DNA of 64,000 nt, taken from positions 1 to 64,000 of the forward strand of contig JANYEC010000007.1 of the NCBI GenBank assembly GCA_025363295.1. The letters run 5' to 3'. A model generated the notes under the pieces. That model saw only the letters and a list, made by a program, of their open reading frames with translations, was not told the origin of the DNA and did not search any database. Position 1 is the first letter of the stretch. Each line of letters opens with the position of its first letter. Below, piece by piece: positions 16,651 through 58,999 of the stretch. Source of the stretch: Akkermansiaceae bacterium (lineage in GTDB: Bacteria > Verrucomicrobiota > Verrucomicrobiia > Verrucomicrobiales > Akkermansiaceae). The position numbers and the translations under genes are program-made.

Positions 16651-16792
16651 GGAACCGCGAATTTGGCGAATCGAGCGTATCTTTTTAAGAAAAATCAACA
16701 AGAGCGCCACCGATGACCATGATGTCTCATGAGCGCGGGATGGAAATTTCACGACCTCTCTGATTCGCAAGATTCGCCAAATTCGCGGTGCC
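16651..16792. repeat. Long imperfect hairpin, GCGAATC-type dispersed repeat
   Basis: Left arm 16651-16678 and right arm 16760-16792 are inverted copies sharing CCGCGAATTTGGCGAATC exactly, with weaker pairing beyond. The right arm, read in reverse, begins GGCACCGCGAAT and has GCGAATC units. The same unit forms the hairpin at 47360-47466. It fills the gap between divergent aspA and holA, and may be a non-autonomous mobile repeat. Confidence 0.65.
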
Positions 16793-23709: not shown

Positions 23710-23832
23710 AGTTGATGCTTGAGAGCTGATAGTTGATAGAAAAATTAAAATCGTACAAAACGGACCGTGGGATTCATCCCGGCCTTCATTCATTCATCCT
23801 CTTCCAATCTAACCATCAACTCTCAACCCACA
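23710..23832. repeat. GTTGAT-type imperfect hairpin upstream of ruvX
   Basis: A left arm at about 23712-23740 (GTTGATGCTTGAGAG, then CTGATAGTTGATAG) is inversely repeated at about 23804-23832 with roughly three quarters identity. A similar pair stands on the other side of ruvX. The right arm overlaps the N-terminal codons of ruvX. Confidence 0.5.
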
Positions 23833-24249
23833 ACCTCCCTACACCCCGCGCTCGGCATCGATCATGGCGACGCCCGCATTGGAATCGCGGCGACCGATGA
23901 CTTCGGCATCCTCGCGCACCCCGTCGAGACCATCGATCAAAGCAAGGGAAACCCCATCGAGCGCATCGCACGTCTTGTGGAACTTCGCAAAATCCAAACC
24001 CTCGTGCTCGGCCTGCCCATTCGCATGGATGGCAGCGAAGGAACCTCTGCTGCCAAAGTGCGCGCGTTCGCCGATCTCCTGCGCGAGCGGGTTCCGACGA
24101 TCCCGCTGATCTTTGTGGATGAAACACTCACAACCTCCAGCGCCGCCGCAAAACTCCGCGAAGCCGGTCGCAATGCGAAACAGCAAAAAGCCATCATCGA
24201 CCAAGCTGCCGCTGTGGAAATTCTCAATATCTGGATGGGGGAGGGTTGA
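23767..24249 (+). CDS. ruvX: Putative pre-16S rRNA nuclease / Holliday resolvase-like RuvX (YqgF)
   Basis: YqgF-family proteins have an RNase H fold and mature 16S rRNA ends. The core runs from GIDHGDARIGIAATDDFG through LVLGLPIRMDGSEG to IFVDETLTTSSAAAKL and a terminal DQAAAVEIL; these carry the acidic catalytic residues. The start is uncertain. The only candidate I find is a GTG at 23767, which adds about 28 residues with no homology, partly encoded by an inverted repeat. The repeat may have replaced the native start region. Confidence 0.82.
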   Translation: MGFIPAFIHSSSSNLTINSQPTTSLHPALGIDHGDARIGIAATDDFGILAHPVETIDQSKGNPIERIARLVELRKIQTLVLGLPIRMDGSEGTSAAKVRAFADLLRERVPTIPLIFVDETLTTSSAAAKLREAGRNAKQQKAIIDQAAAVEILNIWMGEG

Positions 24250-24331
24250 TAGTCGATAGTTGTTCGCGAAGAATAAATGCTCACCTCTTGATCTTTCAAT
24301 CAACTATCAACTTTGAACCATCAACATCTTC
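24243..24331. repeat. GTTGAT-type imperfect hairpin between ruvX and truA
   Basis: GTTGATAGTCGATAGTTG at about 24245-24262 is mirrored by TCAACTATCAACTTTGAACC and CATCAAC at about 24299-24326. It is the same family as the repeat upstream of ruvX, so ruvX is framed by two copies. Confidence 0.5.
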
Positions 24332-47359: not shown

Positions 47360-47466
47360 GGCACGGCGAATCATGTGAATCGAGCGAATCATAAAAGACA
47401 GCTCTCGTTTTTTCCTTATTCACCATCCTCTCTTCATTCGCCAGATTCGCATGATTCGCGGTGCCT
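47360..47466. repeat. Long imperfect hairpin, GCGAATC-type dispersed repeat
   Basis: Left arm 47360-47392 (GGCACGGCGAATCATGTGAA onward) pairs with right arm 47433-47466, which in reverse reads GGCACCGCGAATCATGCGAA followed by TCTGGCGAAT. About 28 of 33 positions match. The same unit makes the hairpin at 16651-16792, so this is a dispersed structured repeat. Confidence 0.65.
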
Positions 47467-50495: not shown

Positions 50496-50667
50496 GGAAT
50501 TTTAGAGGATGTTCTTGAACTGAGGCACGGCTACACAGGCGCGGTGCGGCTGACAAGTCCAATCATGCACCGGGACTGTCACAAATCCAGTGGGAGAATT
50601 CGCTCATGGGTTGCGGGTTGGCGGAGGCGATGAGAAGCTCGCCGCTGAAGCCCGCAAGGACAAGACA

Positions 50668-51633
50668 ATGCCAGTGATCGAGAATTCCAGTTACAATGCC
50701 CCTTCATGGCTGCCGGGTGGGCACATGCAGACGATTTTCCCCGCGCTTTTCAGAAAACTGCCCCGTGTAACGACGCGTGCGGAGCGGCTCGAACTGCCGG
50801 ACGAGGATTTTCTCGATCTTGAATGGGCGGACCAAGGTCGCTCGCGCCTGGCGATTTTGTCCCACGGCCTGGAAGCGCATTGCGGCACGGAATACATCCA
50901 AGGCATGGCCGCCGCGCTGATCCGCTGCGGTTGGGATGTGCTGGTTTGGAATTTTCGGGGTTGTGGTGACGAGCCAAACCGACTGCTGCGGATGTATCAC
51001 AGCGGCGCGACGGAGGATTTGGATGCGGTTGTTTCCCACGCATTGGTCACCCATCCCGCCGCAAGCGTCGATCTCATCGGCTTCAGTTTGGGCGGAAATC
51101 TCGTTTTGAAATACCTCGGAGAAAACCCTGTGGTCCTCTCGCCACGGCTGCACCGGGCGGTGGTATTTTCCGTGCCCTGCGATCTCGCGTGCTCATCGCG
51201 CACACTCTCAAAGCCGTCTAACAAAATCTACATGGAGCGCTTTCTCATCAACATGCGGGCGAAAATCCGGGTGAAAAAGCGAATGTTTCCCGAGCTGCTC
51301 GATCTTTCCGGGCTCAATCGGATTCGCACGTTTCAGGAGTTCGATGATCGTTTCACCGCTCCCATCCATGGCTTCCGTAACGCTGCGGACTATTGGAAGC
51401 GCAACAGCTCGCGCCAGTTTATCCCAGCAATTACATTACCTACCTTGCTCGTGAGCGCGGAAAACGATCCGTTTCTTGGCCCGGATTGTTACCCGCGTGA
51501 TGAAGCGGTGGCGAGTGGGTCATTCCACTTCGAAGCCCCGAAAACGGGCGGGCATGTGGGGTTTTCGTCCGCTGGAAGAGCACCTGAATATTGGTCGGAA
51601 ATCCGCGCCCTCAGTTTTTTGAGCGAGCCGTGA
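50668..51633 (+). CDS. YheT-like alpha/beta hydrolase
   Basis: The start ATG at 50668 gives MPVIENSSYNAPSWLPGGHM (321 aa). The hallmark N-terminal WLPGGHMQTIFPAL is followed by LSHGLEAHCGTEYIQGMA and the nucleophile elbow GFSLGGNLVLKYLGE, with Ser as nucleophile. The acid and His lie in SAENDPFLG and KTGGHVGF near the end. The YheT/ABHD1-3 family are esterases or lipases; the substrate is not known. Downstream of it is the chimeric remnant at 51756. Confidence 0.88.
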   Translation: MPVIENSSYNAPSWLPGGHMQTIFPALFRKLPRVTTRAERLELPDEDFLDLEWADQGRSRLAILSHGLEAHCGTEYIQGMAAALIRCGWDVLVWNFRGCGDEPNRLLRMYHSGATEDLDAVVSHALVTHPAASVDLIGFSLGGNLVLKYLGENPVVLSPRLHRAVVFSVPCDLACSSRTLSKPSNKIYMERFLINMRAKIRVKKRMFPELLDLSGLNRIRTFQEFDDRFTAPIHGFRNAADYWKRNSSRQFIPAITLPTLLVSAENDPFLGPDCYPRDEAVASGSFHFEAPKTGGHVGFSSAGRAPEYWSEIRALSFLSEP

Positions 51634-53932: not shown

Positions 53933-55027
53933 ATGCCACAGGCTGATGCAACTGATGAAATTCAAAACGCCCTCGCAGAGCGAATTTTTGTCCTCGATGG
54001 GGCCATGGGAACCACGATCCGGACCTACGGACTCAACGAGGCCGATGCCCGCGGCCCACGATTTGCTGACAATGAGAAGGATTTGCTGAACAATGGGGAC
54101 ATTCTATCAATCACCCGCCCGGAAGTCATCGGGGACATTCATAAACGTTTTTACGAAGCGGGTTCGGATATTTGTGAGACGAATACTTTCTCCGCCACCG
54201 GCATCGCGCAGAGTGAATTTTTTGTCGAAGATCCCCGCGAAAAAGGTGGCCGTAAGGACCCAGAATTTTTCCAGAAGATCCTCGAAGATCCATTCCTGAA
54301 TGACCTCTCTTGGGAAATGAACGTCGAGTCCTCGCGGCTATGCCGCACATGGGCAGATAACATCGGGACGGACACCGGTCGTAAGCGTTACGTGGCCGGG
54401 GCGATTGGACCTCTAACGGTTTCTCTCAGCAACTCGCCGGATGCCAATGATTCCGGGTTCCGGGTGGTGACATTTGATCAAGTGCTCGCCGCGTATCGCC
54501 ATCAGATCCTCGGATTGATTGAAGGTGGTTGTGACATTCTGATGGTGGAGACGATTTTTGATTCGCTCAATGCCAAGGCGGCTTGTGTGGCAATCGAGGA
54601 GATTTTCGCTGAAAAAAACTATCGCCTGCCCGTGATCGTTTCTGCAGCAGTCGGGCTTGGTGGAGAAACGATGATTTCCGCGCAAAAAGTTGAAGCGCTT
54701 TGGAATGCATTCGCTCATGTGAAGCCTCTGGCGATCGGGCTGAATTGCTCGCTCGGACCCGATTTGATGCGTCCGCATTTGGAAGAACTTTCGGCCTGTG
54801 CTCCGACCTGTATTTCCTGTTATCCGAACGCGGGTTTGCCAAATCCGTTAGCCCCCACCGGCTTCGACCTAGAGCCAAAGCACATGCATGACTACATGGC
54901 GGAATTTGCCAAAGCTGGCCTGCTTAATCTAGCAGGTGGTTGCTGCGGAAATACGCCCGAGCATGTTGCTGCGATCGCGCAGGCCGTGGCGAATTTCGCA
55001 CCGCGCGAGGTTCCAGTGATTCGGTAA
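53933..55027 (+). CDS. metH: Methionine synthase, homocysteine-binding half (split metH, part 1)
   Basis: This 364-aa frame is the first domain of cobalamin-dependent methionine synthase, which transfers a methyl group to homocysteine. It has FVLDGAMGTTIRTYGL at residues 18-33, ETNTFSATGIAQ and the zinc cysteines Cys272 (IGLNCSLG), Cys337 and Cys338 (GGCCGNTPEH). It ends PREVPVIR, exactly where intact MetH continues into the pterin-binding domain. The usual TDxSGRTLSGQ segment is replaced by VGLGGETMISAQK. A GxxExxY element follows at once, then the rest of metH at 55559. I infer an interrupted gene; the halves may still work as separate polypeptides. Confidence 0.9.
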   Translation: MPQADATDEIQNALAERIFVLDGAMGTTIRTYGLNEADARGPRFADNEKDLLNNGDILSITRPEVIGDIHKRFYEAGSDICETNTFSATGIAQSEFFVEDPREKGGRKDPEFFQKILEDPFLNDLSWEMNVESSRLCRTWADNIGTDTGRKRYVAGAIGPLTVSLSNSPDANDSGFRVVTFDQVLAAYRHQILGLIEGGCDILMVETIFDSLNAKAACVAIEEIFAEKNYRLPVIVSAAVGLGGETMISAQKVEALWNAFAHVKPLAIGLNCSLGPDLMRPHLEELSACAPTCISCYPNAGLPNPLAPTGFDLEPKHMHDYMAEFAKAGLLNLAGGCCGNTPEHVAAIAQAVANFAPREVPVIR

Positions 55028-55030
55028 GAT

Positions 55031-55543
55031 AACCGCAAAGGCGCTAAGGTCGCGGAGTGATCGCGAAGGATCAAAGCAAATAACACCATGAAGCGATGAA
55101 GGAGTATTTGAACAAATTATCAAACGAGGTGATTGGGGCGGCGATTGAGGTCCATCAGGATTTGGGGCCTGGACTGCTTGAGTCATCCTATGAGGCCAGT
55201 TTGCAGCACGAGCTGAGCCTGCGTGAGATTGGATCTGTGCGGCAATTACTACTTGCTATCACTAACCAAGGACTGGTGATCCCCGATGCCTATCGCATCG
55301 ACCTGCTGGTCGAGGGCTGCCTTGTGGTCGAACTGAAGACGGTCGAAGCTTTGGTCCAGATTCACTCTTCGCAAGTGCTCACCTATTTGCGCATGTCCAA
55401 CAATCATCTCGGATTGCTCATCAATTTCCGCACAGTGCTCCTCAAAGACGGTATCAAACGCCTCGTGCACAATTTCCCATCCTAATCTTATATTCTTCTT
55501 TTCTTCGCGATCCCTTCACGATCTTCGCGCCTCTGCGGTTCCA
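55031..55543. mobile_element. GxxExxY element bounded by long inverted repeats, inserted in metH
   Basis: AACCGCAAAGGCGCTAAGG at 55031 onward and its inverse ending at 55543 form an imperfect repeat: about 31 of 37 positions match through the AACCGC...GATCGCGAAG core. Between them lies one gene, encoding a GxxExxY protein. The left arm begins 3 nt after the stop of metH part 1 and the right arm ends 15 nt before part 2. GxxExxY genes are often seen with such repeats in diverse bacteria. Whether the unit moves itself is unknown. Confidence 0.7.
55096..55485 (+). CDS. GxxExxY protein, nuclease-like fold
   Basis: The 129-aa protein has the family motif in [22 protein letters not shown] (residues 19-40, where GLLESSY gives GxxExxY). 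It then has [19 protein letters not shown] (66-84), whose Asp and Glu-x-Lys pattern resembles a PD-(D/E)xK nuclease core, and a C-terminal [22 protein letters not shown]. The segment between is slightly shorter than usual. The function of this family is not established. Its presence inside a repeat-bounded insert suggests a role in mobility or repair. Confidence 0.85.
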
Positions 55544-55558: not shown

Positions 55559-58500
55559 ATGAAAACCATCCCCCACGCCCTCCGTCTCTCCGGCACCGAG
55601 GCCTACAACCACACTTCCGATAAGCGCTTCCTGATGATCGGCGAGCGCGCGAACGTCGCGGGTTCACCGCAGTTTGCAAAGTTAGTTAGGGCTGGCGATC
55701 TGGAAGCCGCCGTTGAAGTGGCGCGCCAACAAGTGGCTAACGGTGCGAATGTCATCGATATCTGTTTCGACGACGGCCTGATCGATGGGAAGGCAATGAT
55801 GGCGCGTTTCCTCAGCCTGTTGCAGGGGGAGCCGGATGTCGCGAAAGTGCCGATCATGGTGGACTCCTCGAAGTGGGAAATCCTTGAGGAAGGCCTTAAA
55901 TACCTTCAGGGAAAGGGGATTGTGAATTCAATCTCGCTCAAGGAGGGCGAGGAAAATTTCAAGAAACAAGCCCGACACATCATGCGCTACGGCGCGGCAG
56001 TGGTGGTCATGGCTTTTGACGAAAACGGCCAAGCGGCAAGCTATGAGGAAAAAATCCGAATTTGCGAACGTGCCTATCGGATTCTTGTCGATGAGGTAGG
56101 CTTCAATCAAGATGATATCATTTTCGATCCGAATATTCTAACCGTGGCGACCGGAATCGAGGAACATAACAACTATGCGATCGATTTCATCGAGGCCACT
56201 CGTTGGATCAAGGAGAACCTGCCTGGTGCCAAAGTATCTGGTGGCGTTTCAAATATATCATTCTCATTCCGCGGCAACAACAAAGTTCGCGAGGCGATGC
56301 ACTCGGCGTTTCTCTATCATGCGGGGAATGCTGGCATGGATATGGGCATCGTGAATGCTGGAATGTTAGAGCTTTACGATGAGATTCCCAAAGAGCTCCT
56401 CGACTGCGTGGAAGACGTGCTTCTCAACCGCCGCTCGGATTCCACCGAGCGCCTACTCGATCTAGCGGAGAGCTACAAAAATGTGAGCGGTAAGAAGATC
56501 GAGGAGGATCTCAGTTGGCGTGACGCGCCAGTGGAAAAGCGGTTAGAGCATGCGCTGCTGCGGGGAATCGACAAATACATCGACGAAGACACTGAGGAAG
56601 CACGGATCAAGTACGTGCGCCCGTTAAAAGTCATCGAGGGGCCTTTGATGGATGGTATGGGTGTCGTTGGAGATTTGTTCGGAGCGGGGAAAATGTTTCT
56701 GCCGCAGGTGGTAAAATCTGCCCGTGTGATGAAGAAAGCGGTCGCTTGGCTTTTTCCTTACATGGAAGCGGATAAAGCGGAGTATCTAGCAGGTGACATT
56801 GCCGCTCTTATGGAGGAGAACCCGGCACTGACCGATGACGAGGCCCTCAAGCTTGCAGAACGCGGCCGCTCGGCAGGACGTTTCCTGATTGCTACAGTGA
56901 AAGGCGATGTGCATGACATTGGGAAAAATATCGTGGGTGTAGTACTTTCCTGCAATGGCTTCGAAGTCACTGACATGGGCGTGATGGTTTCGTGCGATAA
57001 GATTCTAGCAAAAGCCGTCGAACTGGGTGCTGATGTCATTGGTCTATCAGGTTTGATCACGCCATCGCTCGATGAAATGGTCCACGTCGCGAAGGAAATG
57101 GAGCGTCTCGGTTTCAAGGTGCCGTTGCTCATCGGCGGCGCGACGACTTCTGCGGCGCACACTGCTATCAAGATCGCGCAGCATTATTCCGGGCAAGTTG
57201 TGCATGTTCTCGATGCATCGCGTTCGGTGCCTGTCACCACGTCATTGCTTTCCAAGGACCAGCGCGACGCTTTTGGCATTGAGAATAAAGCGAAGCAGCA
57301 AGTCCTTCGCGACAATTTCCTCGGTGGGCCAAAAAAGGAAACTCTAACACTCGCCGACGCCCGCGCTGCAGGGCCGAAGTTCGATTGGACAAGTTATGCG
57401 CCGCCTGTGCCGTCTTTCACCGGTACCCGAATCCTCAAGAGCCCATCGCTGCGTGAACTAACAAAGTTCATCGACTGGACGCCATTTTTCCACGCGTGGG
57501 AACTGCGCGGCGTGTGGGACCGTAAGACCGACACGTTGAAGACGAAAAACGAGGCGGGTGCCGCCGAAGCCGCAAAGCTCTATCAGGACGCGCTGTTTTG
57601 GGTGGATCGAATCATCAACGAAAACCGTTGTCATGCGGAAGGCATCTACGGGTTTTTTCCCGCGAACTCAGAAGGCGACGATATCATTGTTTGGACGGAT
57701 GAGTCTCGCAGCACTGAGCGCACTCGCTTCCATACTCTCCGCCAGCAGCTTAAAAAAGATTCCGGGAAACCGAACGTCGCACTAGCAGATTGGGTGGCTC
57801 CCGTGGCGGCGGTTTGCAACCGCGAGCCATTCATCCCGACCTTCGCCAAAACCAAAACACGCAGCGAAAAGACTACTTGGGGCGATCTCCCACATTGGTA
57901 TCGCGAGAGATCGACCTACGCGATCACCTTTCGCTTGGAGGATTCATTTCCAGAAGGTCTGCTAAAAAGTTATCTTCGCGAAAAGGAATCGCTTAAGCTA
58001 AAGATGGAAGACGCGGAAAAAGCCGGAGATATCAATACGGTTGCCTCGGCGAGAACCGAACTCGGCCTGCTCTATCGAAGCAGGGTCGAGTCCGTCTTGG
58101 ATGAGGGGCAGGGTGAAGCGTGGATGAAAAACCCGCCAATTGCGCGGATCGTCGCTGACAGCATACTCCATTTCGCGGGGGAACGCTACGATTTGGGCGC
58201 ATGGTGCGTGATGCCAAATCATGTCCATCTAATCATTTCTCCCAAAGCTGGGCATGACCTGCCAGAGATTTTACACAGTATCAAACGACACAGTGCCAAT
58301 CAGGCTAACAAGCTATTAGGCAGGTCCGGCGCGTTCTGGCAGAAGGAGTCCTATGACCACATCATTCGGGACGCGGATGATTATTGGAACCAGCGGGATT
58401 ATATTTTGAGTAATCCGAAAGCGGCTAGATTGGTGGATTGGGAGTTTTATGGGGAGGGGGCTTGGCGGTTGGAAACCGCCGCCACGGCGGACTACATCGG

Positions 58501-58999
58501 TGGCTTCGTTGTGGGTATCCATGGCGCGCACGAGTTTGCTGAAGAGCTGGATAAGGAAATCGATCCGTACGGTGCGATCATGGTCAAAGCCATAGCAGAT
58601 CGCTTTGCCGAGGCGTTTGCGGAATTTCTTCACCACAAGGCACGTGTCGAGTGGGGTTATGAAGGCGAGGACGAGCTCACCCACGACCAACTCATCCACG
58701 AGAACTATCAGGGCATCCGCCCAGCGCCGGGATACCCCGCGCAGCCGGACCATACGGAAAAGCCAATTCTATTTGATTTGTTAGGTGCGTCATCGGAAAC
58801 CGGCGTGACTCTCACCGAAAGCTGTGCCATGCACCCGGGCGCTGCAGTTTGCGGGCTGTATTTTTCCCATCCGGAGAGTCATTATTTTGCGATTTCCGAG
58901 CTGCAGAAGGACCAGATCGAGGACTACGCACGGCGCAAGGGTATGAGCCTGGCTGAAGCTGAAAAATGGCTAGGCCCGTGGCTCGGTTACGTTTCATGA
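55559..58999 (+). CDS. metH: Methionine synthase, folate/cobalamin/activation part (split metH, part 2) with inserted transposase domain
   Basis: The 1146-aa frame starts [22 protein letters not shown], the point where MetH domain 2 begins. Domains in order: pterin-binding (25-290; [12 protein letters not shown]), cobalamin cap (about 310-400), B12-binding with the cobalt ligand His452 in GDVHDIGKN, and AdoMet-activation (from about 610). The activation domain is split: LADWVAP at 742-748 and [10 protein letters not shown] at 977-986 should be almost adjacent, but about 228 residues of an HUH transposase intervene. After it the domain continues normally to the [12 protein letters not shown] and [13 protein letters not shown] ends. 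The reading frame is unbroken. Activity with the insert present is uncertain. Confidence 0.9.
57802..57823 (+). repeat. Left REP-like palindrome of the RAYT element
   Basis: The 22-bp boundary contains the hairpin GCGGTT-TGC-AACCGC preceded by CGTGGCG. It is translated as part of the metH frame (VAAVCNR). Its inverted partner is at 58465-58486. Confidence 0.8.
58465..58486 (-). repeat. Right REP-like palindrome of the RAYT element
   Basis: Inverted copy of the left boundary with one difference, at the loop. The hairpin is GGCGGTT-GGA-AACCGCC, then GCCACG. It is translated as WRLETAAT in metH. Confidence 0.8.

Follow-up and report, generated by a model that had tools for sequence, protein, structure and literature searches.

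The methionine synthase gene metH of an Akkermansiaceae bacterium lies in two pieces, and between them sits a small gene of the GxxExxY family within inverted repeats. Did this insert break metH, and is it mobile? The window analysed here is a 64,000 nt stretch of contig JANYEC010000007.1, part of a 3.48 Mb draft genome (G000) of Verrucomicrobiota; the named contigs nearest to it come from Verrucomicrobiales, Prosthecobacter and Akkermansia MAGs. Most of the genomes compared with it are also draft MAGs. To our knowledge, GxxExxY (TIGR04256/PF13366) is a very common family without an assigned function. Literature searches with the family names and the arm sequences returned no paper on an arm-bounded, exchangeable GxxExxY cassette. 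The features of the locus are listed in Table 1.

Table 1. Features of the metH locus in the window
Feature	Position	Strand	Description
metH part 1	53933..55027	+	364 aa, homocysteine S-methyltransferase domain; S-methyl_trans E 3.7e-74; Zn-binding Cys 272/337/338 present
Left arm	55031..55068	+	AACCGCAAAGGCGCTAAGGTCGCGGAGTGATCGCGAAG; tandem ~8-9 nt units, CGCNAAGG type
GxxExxY gene	55096..55485	+	129 aa; TIGR04256/PF13366; predicted PD-(D/E)XK nuclease, E29, D69, E79-x-K81
Right arm	55503..55540	-	Inverted copy of left arm, 32/38 positions alike
metH part 2	55559..58999	+	1146 aa; Pterin_bind, B12-binding, Met_synt_B12 (activation); contains in-frame insert
RAYT (REP-associated tyrosine transposase) insert	57801..58487	+	In frame in MetH activation domain; HUH H888/H890, Y948 kept
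Inverted REP-like repeats bounding RAYT	57801-57823 / 58465-58487		

Age and function of the split in metH

A sequence-only reading of the window had described a GxxExxY gene in inverted repeats between two metH pieces. This arrangement was recovered, with arms of 38 nt whose score is far above chance. The left arm begins 3 nt past the end of metH part 1, and metH part 2 starts 18 nt past position 55540. By profile match the two pieces cover TIGR02082 positions of about 83-322 (part 1) and 323-1060 (part 2), which are consecutive stretches, and the proposal that they are consecutive domains of one protein is upheld.

The same reading attributed the split to the insert in the window, and in that form the attribution finds no support. 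metH is in two genes at 31/31 genus loci with a readable site (L007-L018, L020-L035 and L289-L291; part 1 of L008 runs off its contig), and 7/31 of these loci have a split metH without GxxExxY. MetH is fused in 13 genomes of the sister genus, with frames of 1246-1331 aa, and in six genomes of other families, where it occupies one frame (L019, L036 and L293-L296). Since every readable genus locus is split and the sister-genus and other-family proteins are fused, the split is evidently an old trait, ancestral to the genus, and not a recent product of the insertion in the window. An uninterrupted metH, sought among relatives, exists in the sister genus and the other families and at none of the genus loci. 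The genus-wide extent of the split had gone unremarked in the sequence-only reading, as had the in-frame transposase of part 2 (57801-58487). An assembly or binning artefact might be suspected in a collection made up mostly of draft MAGs. However, the split is common to 31 genus genomes, and a one-contig genome (G004, locus L015) has part 1, cassette and part 2 together; we regard the likelihood of an artefact as negligible.

Both halves keep their catalytic residues, the three zinc cysteines and the cobalamin Asp/His, at every locus that covers them, in agreement with the earlier placement of the insertion at a domain boundary. dN/dS is mostly 0.02-0.07 over the first 740 residues of metH part 2. 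The retention of these residues and the low dN/dS suggest that two-piece MetH is very probably functional. Either the cassette broke metH or it entered a metH that was already broken. metH is the only cassette slot seen within one gene, so both orders of events are possible.

One locus, L289 (G018:C34), has a further in-frame insert of ~320 aa at about residues 406-420 of MetH part 2, between MetH domains. It contains a P-loop (GFNAGGQGSGKT) and is zeta-toxin-like by eye.

The GxxExxY protein and its arms

The window protein scores well above the family cut-offs for TIGR04256 (126.9 bits, cut-off 35) and PF13366 (123.9, cut-off 22). Among 10 diverse GxxExxY members E29, D69 and K81 are invariant, and position 79 is E or D. 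The structural model has a confident fold (pLDDT 94.7). Its nearest PDB structure is the Cas4 protein SSO0001 (Foldseek E 6.6e-4, Z 9.7), and Cas4/restriction-like nucleases are closest overall; a sequence-profile search of solved structures with GxxExxY gave no match. The protein has the motif and, in the model, the restriction-endonuclease-like fold that mark the PD-(D/E)XK superfamily, and we predict that it is a nuclease of this type. No transposase domain was found in it, PDDEXK_3 being the only match, and TIGR02436 (S23) was also absent, TIGR04256 being the sole NCBIfam match at E<=0.001. Between GxxExxY copies at the metH site dN/dS is 0.05-0.20 where calculable, which points to strong purifying selection.

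The arm pair of the window has 6 mismatches in 38 nt (84% alike) and can be extended to 66 nt at 73%. Its local alignment score of 23 compares with a maximum of 11.5 in 405 shuffles (shuffled flanks, genus set). Arm scores around 168 control ORFs from the window and neighbouring loci had a median of 8.0; six exceeded 11.5, and the top score was that of the window GxxExxY gene. Matched arms accompany 73/81 GxxExxY genes in the genus. A wide genome scan was carried out with a 5-member GxxExxY alignment, as the 10-member one was too diverse, and 57/77 testable genes from it have matched arms, in at least 12 named phyla, including archaeal Methanothrix. The arms start near (A)ACC, after which three or four units are repeated in tandem every 8-10 nt. 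The unit type is the same within one cassette and varies between cassettes. The edge of the left arm often adjoins or provides a stop codon.

Arm type follows the protein. On the GxxExxY protein tree the unit type changes 13 times, versus at least 32 times in 1000 shuffles. Because flank clustering in the genus places most protein clades at one shared locus, clade-specific arms were not taken as independent evidence of recognition, and only GxxExxY pairs at different loci were compared in an across-locus test. Protein identity correlated with arm similarity in these pairs (rho 0.30, 0/500 permutations), in the worldwide set alone (rho 0.26, 0/500 permutations) and with one gene per genus locus (rho 0.32, 0/2000 permutations). 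Within the genus, clades mostly keep to one locus, so that cognate recognition can be separated only in part from simple joint inheritance.

Each cassette has arms that match in inverted orientation, so a metH-gxx-metH transcript might be processed or regulated through a stem formed by them, as in 23S rRNA intervening sequences, and the gene would be a regulator inherited vertically. Wobble-compatible mismatches between arms are not in excess, however (67 versus 85 within the genus and 62 versus 67 in the global set), which argues against selection for an mRNA stem. Rfam gave no match at E<=1 to a self-splicing intron or any other known RNA element. Arms acting as an RNA stem are supported neither by wobble asymmetry nor by Rfam, and close relatives have the cassette absent or exchanged. 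This explanation is highly improbable.

Some arm-like sequences stand alone or form pairs with no gene between them. The sequence-only reading had proposed a search for the arm elsewhere, and arms were found in other parts of the genome, with a gene-less pair on contig C31 near 50637-50780. The window itself has a gene-less pair of CGCGAAT type (16651-16681 / 16762-16792, 80 nt apart) and a lone unit resembling CGCGAAT-type arms (47436-47466). The CGCGAAT-type gene-less arms in the window look like MITE-like relics of cassettes, and at L002 the GxxExxY gene lies between arms similar to them.

Gain, loss and exchange of the inserts

The 31 split metH loci comprise 19 with an intact GxxExxY gene, 5 with a decayed cassette (L022, L027, L028, L029 and L034) and 7 with none, whose gaps are about 25-80 nt. 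The sequence-only reading had weighed a case against itself in which all relatives have a split metH with unrelated DNA between the halves. The split is indeed present throughout the genus, but what lies between the halves is in most cases a GxxExxY cassette, and frequently one of a different type.

In the MetH tree L011 groups with L008-L010, L020 lies beside the window and L012 lies beside L013, and the cassettes of these neighbours differ. Forcing MetH to follow cassette type, with L007, L021, L011 and L023 together, was rejected (AU p=0.0004). The metH cassette of L025 belongs to a clade otherwise found between pheS and pheT. Between L012 and L013 identity is 95% over the 60 nt that flank the cassette on each side and 47-59% within it; L010 and L011 are 98-99% alike just past the cassette and 48-59% inside. 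These comparisons indicate that cassettes at metH have been replaced exactly at the arms, against the MetH tree.

Other pairs have the reverse pattern. The cassettes of L032 and L017 are 97-99% alike and ~80 nt of the left flank is 95% alike, while metH further out is mostly 74-89% alike apart from a second stretch, around the RAYT site, at 95-99%. For L009 and L010 most of the cassette is 99-100% alike, versus 74-94% in metH. The synonymous difference between L008 and L009 is 0.10 in GxxExxY versus 0.36 in metH. Judging from these identities, some cassettes have recently passed from one species to another, with co-conversion of short flanking tracts. High-identity islands with short co-converted flanks would be the trace of homing, and other recombination could leave the same. 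The metH site has the features expected of a homing gene: occupied, decayed and empty alleles, and same-site horizontal gain with flank co-conversion. Mobility, which had been suggested from the repeats around this copy, gains from the empty, decayed and swapped cassettes here and at other sites, the exchange exactly at the arms, the recent transfers and the arms elsewhere in the genome, and we consider it very likely that the cassette is mobile.

Exchange could ride on ordinary homologous recombination plus selection for the gene. The cassette would then be passive cargo, swapped by recombination in its conserved flanks and kept as its protein is useful, for example in defence or repair. Purifying selection on GxxExxY fits this explanation, and the flanking conserved essential genes provide the homology. 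On the other hand, beside a cassette 97-99% alike the co-converted flank can be as short as about 60-90 nt, decay and loss are frequent, and the arms are left unexplained. We consider passive cargo improbable.

Other cassette sites in the genus are junctions of conserved operons: hisS-aspS, pheS-pheT, carA-purA, peptidase-glnS and nuoJ-nuoL. The hisS-aspS and carA-purA slots are patchy, with occupied, decayed, lone-arm and empty relatives; empty examples are L124, whose aspS is 96% identical, and L161 beside L160. Lone arms of CGAAT, CGGAT and CAGATG type (L140, L146 and L134) occur at hisS-aspS, where other species have a CAGATG-type cassette, which suggests that several cassette types have visited this site. 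At L005 (G000:C106) a GxxExxY cassette lies beside glnS, and the first ~150 nt of glnS recur upstream of the cassette as a broken second copy.

The distribution of copies bears on whether the cassette is a minimal transposon, in which GxxExxY would be a transposase-like nuclease that cuts at the arms as terminal inverted repeats and pastes into new sites. Such an element is consistent with matched arms on most copies, arms that are clade-specific, gene-less arm pairs and several genomic loci per genome. A target-site duplication had been looked for on the strength of the sequence-only reading, but the positions just beyond the arms (55027/55544) have no direct repeat, and neither do the empty sites that were compared. 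Across the genus most copies are concentrated at a few shared junctions rather than scattered, and the protein has a nuclease-like fold, with no transposase domain found. A minimal transposon is therefore unlikely, although less so than passive cargo.

MetH part 2 carries an insert of another kind, a RAYT placed before a stretch of 12 residues. It is present in L007-L019 and L033 and cleanly missing from most others. H888, H890 and Y948 are kept in 14/14 bearing loci. The insert has the Y1 HUH motif with its Tyr and REP-like ends, and five more copies occur in the genome; it scores 69.8 bits with NF047646, below the cut-off of 80, and is above the cut-off of Pfam Y1_Tnp. The RAYTs of L012 and L013 are 97-100% alike versus mostly 72-87% in the surrounding metH. 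The RAYT is a second, separate mobile insert, patchy and recently transferred between L012 and L013. The MetH RAYT of L010 resembles L011 in its N-terminal half and L009 in its C-terminal half, a mosaic which suggests that inserts at this site have recombined. The model of the MetH C-terminus with the RAYT insert is poor (pLDDT 54.8). RAYTs are also in frame within IspG (own genome, L120:529-3135; many relatives, L300 and L302-L315), within CarB (L316-L318), both hosts being named from reading the sequences, and within another large protein (L299 and L301). A survey of the RAYT protein family reported no evidence that RAYT genes are mobile (PMC6006769), so in-frame RAYTs merit separate study.

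A candidate homing-like cassette and its relatives

The insert is probably a free-standing, homing-endonuclease-like selfish cassette within a functional two-piece MetH. The cassette would consist of one GxxExxY nuclease gene between matched inverted arms of tandem units, lodged in the gap of a long-split MetH. Its nuclease would recognise a cognate site or the arms and cut alleles that are cassette-free or carry a foreign cassette. Double-strand-break repair from a cassette-bearing copy would then install the cassette. Both MetH halves would assemble into a working enzyme, so that the host tolerates the cassette, and a stop codon at or from the left arm edge would make insertion at a coding boundary harmless. 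The chances that the cassette homes in the strict sense appear evenly divided.

We know of no matched arms on classical homing endonuclease genes, and this counts against the homing explanation. In Aeromonas phage Aeh1 the endonuclease gene mobE lies within nrdA, and the split NrdA is reported to be functional; in T4 the free-standing homing endonuclease gene mobA created a gene in pieces in gene 60 (PMC2988022). Like these, the metH cassette places a nuclease gene between the pieces of a conserved enzyme gene, with patchy occupancy of the same site and co-conversion of flanks. Unlike them, it would encode a PD-(D/E)XK rather than an HNH or GIY-YIG enzyme, of which cleavage is inferred, it resides in bacterial chromosomes with matched inverted arms, and the metH split is fixed in a whole genus. 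For gene 43 of phage 25/44RR, as for metH, the gene may have been split before the nuclease arrived (PMC2988022), and the two cases share the doubt over which came first.

Insertion sequences with terminal inverted repeats likewise enclose one gene in inverted ends, and they too have several copies in a genome as well as solo ends. The cassette differs from them in having no transposase domain, no target duplication and few, shared sites, and its ends consist of tandem units whose type varies from locus to locus. The split methionine synthase MtgBCDE of the Roseobacter group has subunits that evolved separately from classical MetH (PMC12478193). Here too MetH functions are on separate polypeptides, whereas the metH of this genus is a classical MetH broken in two.

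S23 genes (TIGR02436, four-helix-bundle) resemble the cassette in layout, being small genes with matched arms of tandem 7-10 nt units; about 20/28 (from L319-L348) have matched inverted arms above the shuffle maximum. They differ from GxxExxY genes in protein fold and in unit grammar (GTTGATAG, AAGTTTC and others). In the window, inverted repeats of S23-arm type with GTTGATAG units (23711-23748 / 24288-24325) surround a RuvX/YqgF-like ORF (23767-24249).

It is about an even call that GxxExxY genes in general encode the enzymes of a mobile-element class that is widespread and undescribed, each element being a single PD-(D/E)XK nuclease gene between cognate inverted arms of tandem units, homing into operon junctions and sometimes gene bodies in bacteria and archaea. 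S23 genes may represent a parallel element with this architecture. The genus offers a natural series (fused, split-empty, split-occupied and split-swapped) for studying how essential enzymes survive breakage in two. If GxxExxY is the nuclease of a homing-like cassette with cognate arms, the family would gain testable biochemistry, there would be an explanation for a type of short inverted repeat, made of tandem units, that many genomes contain, and the nuclease-plus-arms architecture would join the known homing elements.
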